Part shown: positions 4,840 to 8,181 of the stretch, in pieces
Layout of the letters: each line of letters opens with the position of its first letter
Numbering within the stretch: position 1 is the first letter of the stretch
From: Planktothrix serta PCC 8927
GTDB taxonomy: Bacteria; Cyanobacteriota; Cyanobacteriia; Cyanobacteriales; Microcoleaceae
Direction of reading: 5' to 3'
Length of the DNA: 64,000 nt
Assembly: GCF_900010725.2 (NCBI RefSeq)
Contig: NZ_LR734871.1
Coordinates: 56,168-120,167, forward strand
Position numbers and translations under genes: made by a program
The notes under the pieces: generated by a model
Told to the model about the DNA's origin: nothing
Seen by the model: the letters and a program-made list of their open reading frames with translations, nothing else
Database searches by the model: none

Positions 4840-5220
4840 CTACTTTTTTTTACTTTTTTTGGTTTTATCTTTCTCTTTCTTAGATTTTTTCTCGGAGGGT
4901 TCTGATGGAATAGCTTCTAGTTGACCTTCCACTAACCCATTAAACCCATATATTTCTCGACTTCCAGCCATTGTCACTAACTCAACTTCCTGTTCATCTC
5001 CGGGTTCAAATCTAACCGCAGTTCCAGCCGGAATATTTAACCGCATTCCTTTGGTTTTTTCTCGTTTAAATTTCAGGGCTTCATTAACTTCATAAAAGTG
5101 ATAATGTGAGCCAATTTGAATTGGGCGATCGCCTGTATTCCCCACTTTAACCTTTAAAGTCGGACGACCCACATTGAGTTCAATTTCACCTGCTTTAACA
5201 ATCAGTTCACCTGGAATCAT
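4840..5220 (-). CDS. ureB: Urease subunit beta with lysine-rich C-terminal tail
   Basis: Structural subunit of urease. The sequence from [11 protein letters not shown] through [30 protein letters not shown] and YGFNGLVEG is the whole standard UreB of about 101 residues. The open frame runs further upstream to 5274, but UreB proteins begin at MIPGE and a GAGG site precedes the ATG at 5220. About 25 extra residues, almost all Lys, Ser and Glu, follow the normal end; such a tail is not part of the usual core. Two TATAAT sequences occur on this strand about 45-60 bp upstream of the start and could be -10 elements. ureC is not next but lies beyond the ATPase and DUF4276 genes. Confidence 0.95.
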
Positions 5221-5358
5221 TTGTTTTGTCCTCTGATGATGATTAACATTCCTAATCGAATCATTATTATACAAGAATTATATCCCATTGAAAACATCCC
5301 TTGATATCATTATCTAGGATTAGTCCTCAATTAGCAAGAATATAGGGATAAAAATAGA

Positions 5359-5387: not shown

Positions 5388-5428
5388 ATAAATTAGCTAT
5401 GGTATCAATACTAACATTTTTTAAAAGA

Positions 5429-5821
5429 ATGAATGCTCAACAGTTAGAAAAACAACTCAATAATTTAAAACCTGCTGAAAAACTGCAATTGATTCAAACC
5501 CTGGCTCAAAATTTAAGTGATGATTTTTTACCCAAAGAAACCTCTGAACCTGACTCAATTGCTAATGTGGGGCGTGTTCCTATTCCGGTTTGGAAATTAG
5601 TCGGTTATCGCCGTTTAGGTTGGAGTGATTTACAAATCTTAGAAAACTTTCCGCATTTACAAGCTGAAGATTTACAAACCGCTTGGAACTATGCAGAAAG
5701 TTACCCAAATCAGATCAATCAAGACTTAGAAGTCTATCAACAGAATCAACCTTTATCCGTGAATGATTCCCCTTGGGATGAACTTATAAACTTGATTGAT
5801 CGTTGTACTGTTGATACCTGA
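5429..5821 (+). CDS. DUF433 antitoxin-like protein, C-terminus cut by nonsense codon
   Basis: A protein of about 130 aa whose centre (IPVWKLVGYRRLGWSDLQIL, then FPHLQAEDLQTAWNY) is a DUF433 domain, a helix-turn-helix-like family found as the antitoxin half of modules paired with a DUF5615/PIN-like nuclease. I start it at 5429 because the promoter places the transcript start next to the upstream ATG at 5399. After the TGA stop the same frame continues ITDLAEQYDH before a TAA. That matches a tail (DTGI.DLA.Q.DHYLY) I recall from many small cyanobacterial proteins, so the TGA looks like a GGA-to-TGA mutation. No toxin gene follows, so it is an orphan. Confidence 0.7.
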   Translation: MNAQQLEKQLNNLKPAEKLQLIQTLAQNLSDDFLPKETSEPDSIANVGRVPIPVWKLVGYRRLGWSDLQILENFPHLQAEDLQTAWNYAESYPNQINQDLEVYQQNQPLSVNDSPWDELINLIDRCTVDT

Positions 5822-6389: not shown

Positions 6390-6420
6390 GGTGCGTGCGG
6401 CTTCGCCTTACGCACCCTAC
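6390..6420. repeat. GTAGGGTGCG palindromic repeat, copy 1
   Basis: A 31-bp imperfect palindrome (GGTGCGTGCGG.. ..CGCACCCTAC) preceded by the lead TTTATTAATCAATCAAAG. The same lead and core recur in the array at 7.9-8.2 kb, and the core again at 6.7, 11.4 and 12.0 kb. It is a dispersed REP/MITE-like element. Confidence 0.8.
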
Positions 6421-6456
6421 TTGAAATAGAGGATATCAAGCCTAAAATTTGTTCAA

Positions 6457-6663
6457 TTAGTCTTTTTCATTAGTGGCTGACCAAATCAGCGCTATAAACC
6501 ATCCGATAACTGTCCATCCTAAAAAGATGTTGAGCAAAAATATCGCGGTTGTATTTCTTTTGGACTTAAACAGAGCAATAATCCAGGGAAGAAAATACAA
6601 TACTAAGGAAACTCCCACAGTTATAAGTTGTTCTGTACTCGTCATGTTCTCAATATCGTTCAT
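6457..6663 (-). CDS. Superinfection immunity family membrane protein
   Basis: A 68-aa protein with two membrane helices. The segment YFLPWIIALFKSKRN, then AIFLLNIFLGWTVIGWFIAL, matches the superinfection-immunity protein family (PF14373-type, related to phage T4 Imm), in which the first helix is followed by a basic loop and an LNxxxGWTxIGWxxAL second helix. In T4 the protein blocks DNA injection by a second phage. In bacterial genomes the family is widespread, often in toxin or accessory regions, and the role of most members is unproven. The ATG at 6663 is chosen because AGGAG precedes it by six bases; the TTG directly upstream is not needed. It is flanked by palindromic repeats on both sides. 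Confidence 0.85.
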   Translation of the reverse strand: MNDIENMTSTEQLITVGVSLVLYFLPWIIALFKSKRNTTAIFLLNIFLGWTVIGWFIALIWSATNEKD

Positions 6664-6741
6664 CAATCGCTCCTAAAACAAAAGTTTAACTTATGCTAAA
6701 ACAATAATATATTATTTTTTTTTATAGCCAAGCAAGTTTTT

Positions 6742-6861
6742 GTAGGGTGCGTAAGCACAGCGCACGCACCAAAAATTTGTTAATTAATAAAAGTCGGTGC
6801 GTGTGGCGAATTTTCAGTTATTGAATTTACCCATAAATTAATTCCGCCTGACGCACCCTAC
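6742..6861. repeat. GTAGGGTGCG palindromic repeats, copies 2 and 3
   Basis: Copy 2 (6742-6770) is the compact form GTAGGGTGCGTAAGC..GCACGCACC. Copy 3 (6796-6861) has its two arms split by about 40 bp of AT-rich sequence, so it looks like an element with an internal insertion or an extended loop. The linker between them is the TTAATTAATAAAAG variant of the family lead sequence. Confidence 0.7.
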
Positions 6862-6899
6862 GAGTTTTTTAAGGATGCGATCGCGTAGCCCCTACAATT

Positions 6900-7460
6900 C
6901 TAATAATTTTTTGTTCCAATCGTTTGTTTTTCATTTTCTAAATGAGCAGTTGCTATTAAATGATTTAATTCCTCTATCGCCATTAAAACCACACTTTCCC
7001 CTTCGGGACGATTAATAACAATAATATCTCGATTCGCCACAACTTGCTCACATAATTGAGTGATATTTTCCCTAGCATCTTCCCAAGAAATTTGATTAAA
7101 TTTCATCAGATTTAGCTTTAGTTTCTCCTCTAATTTAGCCGGATCAGTAAAAACTTGATGGAAATGACTACTAAAATAAACTACTTCATAATTAGGGTAT
7201 AATTCCTGATTTAACTGTTTCCATAAACTTAATCCTTCCCATTCAAAACGTTCTACTTCTTCCGGTGTAACTTCAGGAGAATCAGAAGGATCAGCTAAGT
7301 TTAATCGAGCTTCAAAAGCATCAGCCCAATTATACAAACGTTGAATGGTTTCTTGAGTTAAAGGTAAAGATTCTGGATCTAAATCACCCACTTGATCAGG
7401 TTCATTCCACCATAAGGGATAACATCCATAATCTGTCATTAGTCTAATTTTTTTAGGCAT
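6900..7460 (-). CDS. Fusion of an immunity-like domain with a Phd/YefM antitoxin domain
   Basis: A 186-aa protein in two parts. Residues 1 to about 95 (MPKKIRLMTDYGCYPLW, LPLTQETIQRLYNWADAF, then an acidic stretch) resemble a small family of hypothetical or immunity-type proteins. Residues from M119 (MKFNQISWEDARENITQL .. DIIVINRPEGESVVLMA) look like a complete Phd/YefM-type antitoxin DNA-binding and dimerisation domain. The start at 7460 has GAGG nine bases upstream; the TTG at 7469 is less likely. The gene lies 21 bp downstream of the toxin-like gene on the same strand, the usual toxin-then-immunity order. An ancestral fusion of two adjacent genes is likely; a sequencing join is less likely because the frame and linker are intact. 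Confidence 0.65.
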   Translation of the reverse strand: MPKKIRLMTDYGCYPLWWNEPDQVGDLDPESLPLTQETIQRLYNWADAFEARLNLADPSDSPEVTPEEVERFEWEGLSLWKQLNQELYPNYEVVYFSSHFHQVFTDPAKLEEKLKLNLMKFNQISWEDARENITQLCEQVVANRDIIVINRPEGESVVLMAIEELNHLIATAHLENEKQTIGTKNY

Positions 7461-7481
7461 ATAATTCAACCTCTATAAAGA

Positions 7482-7919
7482 TTATTTTGGTTTTGTTCTC
7501 GGATTTGCCCCTACAATATATCCATTATTACCTATTGTAACTGCAATATATTTAATCTCACCCTTATGAATAAATTGATAAACTGGACGGGGGTTAACAG
7601 TGTCCCTACCTTGGAAACTAACAATGCTTCCTTTGGTAATTGCTCCCATAACAACATCAACAATTTCATCTGCATTAATTCCTATTCTAGCAAATTGATC
7701 GGCTTTCGCTAAAATATGCTGTAAACCTCGGTTTTCATCTCCCGTTTCTAAGAATACAATTTGATCATCCGCACATTTAGTGATTCTTACAATCTTTTCA
7801 GGATTATGCTTGATTTCTCTGGCTTGAAGTTCTGCAATTAAGGCAGATCTTTCAGTTTCATAATCTGGCGTTTGAGTCAAGGGCTTACCTACTATAATGT
7901 TAAAAATATACAAGAACAT
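7482..7919 (-). CDS. Polymorphic-toxin-like nuclease domain protein (BECR-type, putative)
   Basis: A 145-aa protein. The order of motifs, GLQHIL at 65-70, then an Asp/Glu helix (ADEIVDVVMGAITKG), SFQGRDTVNPRPVYQF, IKYIAVTIGNNGYIVGANP, resembles the C-terminal RNase domains of contact-dependent and other polymorphic toxins in the barnase/EndoU/colicin-D/RelE-like group. In relatives that I recall, GLQHI is followed by a second His (RH..DF); here it is AKADQF, so activity may be reduced. There is no signal or delivery domain, and a stop codon lies just upstream in frame, so this is a free toxin domain or a severed C-terminal cassette. The downstream fusion gene is the likely antidote. The family call is from memory of motifs. 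Confidence 0.55.
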   Translation of the reverse strand: MFLYIFNIIVGKPLTQTPDYETERSALIAELQAREIKHNPEKIVRITKCADDQIVFLETGDENRGLQHILAKADQFARIGINADEIVDVVMGAITKGSIVSFQGRDTVNPRPVYQFIHKGEIKYIAVTIGNNGYIVGANPRTKPK

Positions 7920-7947
7920 TATAACCGATTAAAAAGCACCCTCAAAC

Positions 7948-8181
7948 TTTTATTAATCAATCAAAGTAAAGTAGTAGTAGGGTGCGTAAGCACAGCGCAC
8001 GCACCAAAAGTTTATTAATCAATCAAAGTAAAGTAGTAGTAGGGTGCGTAAGCACAGCGCACGCACCAAAAGTTTATTAATCAAAGTAAAGTAGTAGTAG
8101 AGTGCGTAAGCACAGCGCACGCACCAAAAGTTTATTAATCAATCAAAGTCGGTGCGTGCGGCTTCGCCTTACGCACCCTAC
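7948..8181. repeat. Tandem array of 62-bp units carrying the GTAGGGTGCG palindrome
   Basis: Three units of 62, 62 and 58 bp, each with lead TTTATTAATCAATCAAAG, spacer TAAAGTAGTA and palindromic core GTAGGGTGCGTAAGC..GCACGCACC, are followed by a fourth lead joined to a core in the other sequence form (GGTGCGTGCGGCTTCGCC..). Unit 3 lacks 4 bp of the lead and has a G-to-A change in its core. The array lies between the toxin-like gene and the chlB stop codon. It is not a CRISPR because there are no unique spacers. Confidence 0.9.

Follow-up and report, generated by a model that had tools for sequence, protein, structure and literature searches.

A CdiI-type immunity protein joined in frame to a Phd/YefM domain beside a CdiA-CT-like toxin gene in Planktothrix

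Introduction

Type II TA modules are as a rule kept apart from polymorphic toxin-immunity pairs, although toxin folds are common to both. Two neighbouring genes in a 64,000-nucleotide stretch of the genome of Planktothrix serta PCC 8927 (the whole of this stretch is referred to below as the window) raise the question of whether one antidote may belong to both. A preliminary sequence-only reading had taken the upstream gene for the RNase tip of a polymorphic toxin and the downstream one for a fusion of an immunity-like N-terminal domain with a Phd/YefM antitoxin domain, so that polymorphic-toxin immunity and type II autoregulation would be combined in a single protein.

Organization of the locus

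The features recognised at the locus are listed in Table 1. The toxin stop codon and the start of the fusion gene are separated by a gap of 21 bases, and a Shine-Dalgarno sequence (AGAGG) lies 9 bases before the ATG of the latter. The TTG codon is regarded as the better start of the toxin gene because in-frame stops are present upstream of it in P. paucivesiculata (L001). A longer N-terminus (from ATG 7919, MFLYIFN...) is permitted by the frame and was judged unlikely, the stops of L001 falling in that very stretch. The fusion frame itself is unbroken: neither the stop nor the frameshift that might have separated the immunity and Phd halves is present in the window, and since this in-frame junction recurs in six Planktothrix genomes, it is not a read error.

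Several other elements were noted in the surroundings. A small ORF that matches the superinfection immunity family (PF14373, 2.6e-18) is located downstream of the fusion (6457-6666, reverse strand), and this synteny is kept in loci L003, L004 and L012. A tandem repeat at 7949-8149, made up of 3.3 copies of a 62-bp unit with a GTGCGTAAGC...GCACGCACC motif, may be a small mobile repeat; the motif recurs around 6390-6860. A DUF433 protein (PF04255, 2.2e-10; 5399-5821, forward strand), a member of a family that is often TA-linked, is encoded next to a urease beta gene (4840-5274).

Table 1. Features of the toxin-antidote locus in the Planktothrix serta PCC 8927 window.
Feature	Coordinates	Strand	Remarks
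Toxin ORF	7482-7919	-	145 aa, full open frame
Toxin gene, likely form	7482-7880	-	132 aa from TTG 7880; CdiA-CT BWH57-type BECR domain
Fusion ORF	6900-7469	-	189 aa, full open frame
Antidote gene, likely form (CdiI-Phd/YefM fusion)	6900-7460	-	186 aa from ATG 7460
CdiI-type immunity domain	7170-7454	-	residues 6-100 (189-aa reading); 7M5F-A match
Phd/YefM DNA-binding domain	6936-7094	-	residues 126-178; without C-terminal neutralising tail; PF02604 and 2A6Q matches
BrnA-like antitoxin frame remnant, MKNKRLEQKIIR	6899-6934	-	overlaps fusion end in another frame; DNA alignment
Inverted repeat, TATAATGTT-13-AACATTATA	7893-7923		over presumed promoter; weak operator candidate

The toxin is a solitary CdiA-CT homologue

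The product of the upstream gene matched chain C of structure 7M5F with an E-value of 3.8e-25 (phmmer), and a profile of the toxin family (25 sequences) matched the same chain at 3.4e-44. In agreement with this, a Foldseek search with the predicted structure (pLDDT 90.5) returned 7m5f_C as the best hit (E 1.4e-12, TM 0.79/0.87), followed by a weak second match to MqsR. Entry 7M5F is the CdiA-CT toxin/CdiI complex of Serratia marcescens BWH57, whose toxin was assigned by the depositors to the Barnase/EndoU/Colicin/RelE (BECR) fold, with H47, E51, H52 and R89 as active-site candidates that are proposed rather than proven to be catalytic (PMC8616854).

According to the alignment to 7M5F, the window toxin retains H47 (as H68 in the numbering of the 145-aa reading), R89 (as R111), N117 (as N139) and R119 (as R141), lacks E51, and has lost H52 through a one-residue deletion; most other cyanobacterial copies of the toxin keep H52. 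Given that E51 and H52 are missing while H47, R89, N117 and R119 are kept, toxin activity is likely, not certain, and the window protein is probably an RNase.

The gene is a stand-alone ORF without a trafficking or delivery part and the sole copy in its genome; unlike the toxin of a contact-dependent inhibition system, its product is not carried at the C-terminal end of a large CdiA protein that is secreted. The assignment to the RNase tips of polymorphic toxins thus holds for the domain, a BECR-type homologue of CdiA-CT, and fails for its setting: a solitary gene encodes it here, and no delivered protein ends in it.

The N-terminal half of the fusion as the probable antidote

The immunity half was identified via a PDB profile search, Pfam and NCBIfam scans having named no family for it. 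Residues 6-100 of the fusion match chain A of 7M5F, the CdiI protein of the toxin's own solved complex, at 6.5e-17 (phmmer), the immunity profile does so at 3.2e-32, and the structural model of this half superimposes on the same chain with an rmsd of 1.4 (Foldseek 2.1e-10, TMt 0.92). Four CdiI residues reported to contact the toxin (D9, Y10, W16 and D25) are conserved in the window fusion, K5 being replaced by R, and the gene lies directly downstream of the toxin gene, in the same order as in CdiA-CT/CdiI BWH57. That the two window proteins find their counterparts in the two chains of a single solved complex supports a toxin-antidote relationship. These matches, like that of the C-terminal half described below, lie well beyond what chance would give.

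More specific evidence comes from another Planktothrix genome (G257, locus L003, G257:C50). There, a block that takes in the toxin except for its first third, together with approximately the first 35 immunity residues, has an identity to the window of only 48-82%; on either side of the block identity is ∼85-98%, and the control species shows ∼87-100% throughout. The block spans exactly those toxin and immunity parts that are reported to touch, includes 4-5 of the named CdiI contact residues and leaves the Phd half untouched. Read from the alignments, this is a cassette exchange as expected of cognate polymorphic toxin-immunity alleles, and since the catalytic part of the toxin was exchanged together with the contacting part of the immunity domain, the N-terminal half is very probably the working antidote. 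The toxin and immunity distance matrices are also correlated (r 0.795; none of 2000 permutations as high), a value to which shared ancestry contributes; the cassette exchange is the stronger evidence for the antidote role. Neutralisation of the toxin by the fusion can accordingly be expected with considerable confidence.

The Phd/YefM half and the question of autoregulation

The C-terminal domain was found to be what it had been taken for: residues 126-178 match PF02604 at 5.5e-8 (32.9 bits against a cut-off of 29.8), and this half also matches E. coli YefM (2A6Q) with an E-value of 3.9e-5. In YefM, R10 and R31 are reported to be essential for DNA binding, and the C-terminal tail binds YoeB (PMC4803016). 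The two arginines align with R133 and R154 of the window fusion, and DNA binding by the Phd half is credible. The PF02604 match, however, ends at position 55 of the 74 in the profile, whereas the best of the complete YefM genes in this genome are matched up to positions 66-72; the YoeB-binding tail is therefore missing from the window fusion. No gene for a YoeB, Doc or RelE toxin adjoins it. The AlphaFold confidence for this half is poor, below 50, and the prediction is unreliable at the alignment depth available.

The 9-bp inverted repeat over the presumed promoter was considered as an operator. It appeared promising in the window, where only 3 of 500 shuffles gave one as good, and failed in the comparison across the genus: of eight Planktothrix loci just two have an exact copy, and no operator is conserved among them.

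In the mechanism proposed here, the first gene would give a BECR-fold, RNase-like toxin without a delivery part, and the CdiI half would bind it and cover its active face, as deduced from the homologous complex 7M5F. The C-terminal half would be the dimerising, DNA-binding half of YefM, captured from a yefM gene just downstream, an order seen unfused in two other genomes (G056 and G202). It would most likely make the antidote dimeric and enable it to repress the promoter of its own operon by binding there; neutralisation of a YoeB-type toxin is not expected of it, since the tail responsible is missing. In gene sizes, order and domains the locus has the layout of a type II TA system, namely a small intracellular toxin and an adjacent antidote with a DNA-binding domain. 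That a solitary chromosomal CdiA-CT/CdiI-type pair acts intracellularly in the manner of a type II TA system, autoregulation included, is given slightly less than an even chance. The further step, that the immunity protein became a true type II antitoxin via its YefM domain, neutralising a CDI-type RNase and repressing its own operon, is proposed more tentatively.

Patchy retention of the fusion in Planktothrix

Of ten Planktothrix genomes surveyed, six carry an in-frame fusion (G000, G293, G126, G271, G257 and G241). In two others (G109 and G180) the Phd half is deleted and toxin and immunity are retained, a deletion seen in P. rubescens (also at locus L004) and in a sister species; of the remaining genomes, one contains a remnant and one, 73% complete, contains nothing of the fusion. 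Judged from these sequences, the CdiI-Phd/YefM fusion is real but patchily retained.

In G241 (L010, G241:C1, 1507-2277), a 256-aa ORF contains CdiI-like, diverging Phd/YefM and BrnA-like modules. Other species have the BrnA-like gene as a separate, overlapping ORF or, like the window, retain no more than its first codons; the window remnant was recognised by DNA alignment with L001, L002 and G241. The match of a complete BrnA-like copy (L007) to PF14384 is weak (0.0018).

Such a record could be explained if the Phd half were a passenger. Deletions within an antitoxin cluster would have brought a yefM remnant into frame with the immunity gene, to be tolerated and unused while the immunity half does everything, and in G241 the joining would have extended further, to the BrnA-like remnant. 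The loss of the half in two species speaks for this, yet the frame has stayed open in six genomes, and in five intact copies without G241 the Phd half has a pN/pS of 0.35, which is no weaker a constraint than on the immunity half (0.45; toxin, 0.55). With G241 added, the value for the Phd half rises to 0.46 (immunity half, 0.43; toxin, 0.55): the domain is diverging there and has lost the R31 equivalent, and in G271 the Phd half is truncated by a different ending. Both DNA-contact arginines are nevertheless kept in four of the six in-frame fusions. The direct overlap of the BrnA-like remnant with the fusion end, the frameshifts in nearby yefM genes of G056 and G202 and the lack of a conserved operator again agree with the passenger explanation, which is a serious possibility without being a probable one. 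That the Phd half serves autoregulation is a plausible, tentative reading in view of the retained arginines and the purifying selection; overall, a regulatory role of the C-terminal half is about as likely as passenger status. Of the hybrid antidote initially envisaged, the joining of the two domains in one frame has thus stood, while its autoregulation falls short of being established, with the missing tail, the lack of a genus-wide operator and the loss of the Phd half in two species speaking against it.

The toxin-immunity pair outside Planktothrix

The toxin-CdiI pair is widespread in cyanobacteria. A survey of 293 genomes of the order (Cyanobacteriales) yielded 77 places with the immunity half and 59 with the toxin; an immunity gene is adjacent to the toxin gene in 57 of the 59, and in 56 of these 57 the toxin comes first and both genes run in the same direction. 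In genomes other than those of Planktothrix the immunity half normally stands alone, as a gene of ∼115-120 aa, and in G056 and G202 immunity and yefM genes stand unfused side by side. The 20 of 77 immunity genes without a neighbouring toxin count against the mechanism proposed above, as do the loss of E51/H52, the Phd deletions, the divergence of G241, the unconserved repeat and the poor AlphaFold result for the Phd half.

In Pantoea, a toxin domain of the BWH57 type ends a hemagglutinin-repeat (CdiA-like) protein, in Streptomyces it ends an ALF-repeat protein, and a CdiI-like gene comes next in both. On a viral contig (L094, 3396-5354), a 653-aa phage structural-like protein ends in the domain, and a CdiI-like gene again follows. 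Scanning of viral contigs with the toxin sequence alone gave no match, with alignments four immunity and two toxin loci were found, and the toxin was absent from the phage records searched.

The C-terminal position of the domain in the Pantoea, Streptomyces and L094 proteins, together with the commonness of orphan toxin-immunity modules at CDI loci (PMC9086364), would fit a role of the toxin as delivered effector, or as reservoir cassette serving a CdiA-like protein, rather than as intracellular TA toxin. This seems improbable for the Planktothrix gene: every toxin copy found in the order lies in a short open frame of at most 162 aa, a single copy is present in the genome, and the window toxin has its own start codon, whereas CDI orphan toxins have been reported without one (PMC9086364).

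Origin of the fusion and related gene fusions

The order of genes in G056, which belongs to the same family, is toxin remnant, immunity, frameshifted yefM, toxin, immunity, and that in G202 is toxin, immunity, frameshifted yefM. A deletion between the immunity gene and the downstream yefM would give the fusion frame of Planktothrix. Besides the frameshifted genes of G056 and G202, yefM beside an unfused immunity gene is complete in G094 and reduced to a fragment in G253. Two further arrangements were observed: in G258 (L017, G258:C103, 1881-2138, reverse strand) YefM is fused to the last YoeB residues directly upstream of a toxin-less CdiI-like gene, and in G128 (L101) a distance of 1.5 kb separates a CdiI-like gene from a complete YefM-YoeB pair. 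The neighbourhood of yefM and immunity genes suggests a recurring association, which is not relied on here, as only two cases are intact and TA genes cluster.

A 216-aa ORF of G096 (L098, G096:C150, 323-1304, reverse strand) consists of a toxin remnant, a CdiI-like domain and a tail of the type found in antitoxins that partner PemK/MazF. The tail matches an Alicyclobacillus gene annotated beside a PemK/MazF toxin, and a PemK toxin (PF02452, 4.5e-13) is encoded directly downstream. This fusion is independent of the CdiI-YefM fusion of Planktothrix, and fusion of the CdiI-type immunity family to TA antitoxins has probably arisen at least twice (in Planktothrix and G096).

The G096 arrangement, as well as the several other Phd/YefM genes in the P. 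serta genome, might suggest a bifunctional antidote, in which the Phd half would have kept the ability to neutralise or buffer another toxin, of the YoeB or Doc type, encoded elsewhere in the genome. Such a function is very unlikely for the window fusion, which has neither the tail by which YefM binds its toxin (PMC4803016) nor an adjoining YoeB gene. Least probable of all is an internal start at the junction (LMKFNQ) giving two proteins and no functional fusion: an ATG is present there in five of the six intact copies, but the window shows no clear ribosome-binding site ahead of it, and in P. paucivesiculata L001 the codon is ATT with the frame still open, so that L001 makes both halves as a single protein and the internal start was rejected.

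Comparison with known systems

A solitary chromosomal CDI-type pair whose immunity protein carries a TA repressor domain stands as a concrete intermediate form linking the two types of system. It makes the passage from immunity gene to autoregulated antitoxin a directly testable question, with sister species that carry and lack the Phd half. No description of an immunity-Phd fusion was found in the literature on CDI, polymorphic toxins and fused TA genes, of which the coverage was partial, making this weak evidence of novelty.

The closest relative is CdiA-CT/CdiI of Serratia marcescens BWH57 (7M5F; PMC8616854), with which the locus shares homologous toxin and immunity domains, gene order and CdiI contacts; here, in contrast, there is no CdiA carrier, the immunity protein bears a YefM domain, and the toxin lacks the equivalents of E51 and H52. 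With YefM-YoeB (2A6Q) it shares the C-terminal half, homologous to the N-terminal DNA-binding domain of YefM and keeping R10 and R31, but neither an adjacent YoeB nor the neutralising tail, and its toxin is of another family and very probably neutralised by another domain. Fused TA genes (YefM-YoeB, ParE-like-Phd/YefM; PMC11980606) resemble it in the in-frame joining of TA domains, including Phd/YefM; those, however, unite a toxin with its own antitoxin, whereas two antidotes from different system types are united here. Finally, Tox-RES and Ntox24 are shared by polymorphic toxins and TA systems (PMC3482391), so that one toxin fold serves both system types as it does here, although in the passages on them each system type has a separate partner antidote, and the antidotes are not fused into a single protein as they are in Planktothrix.
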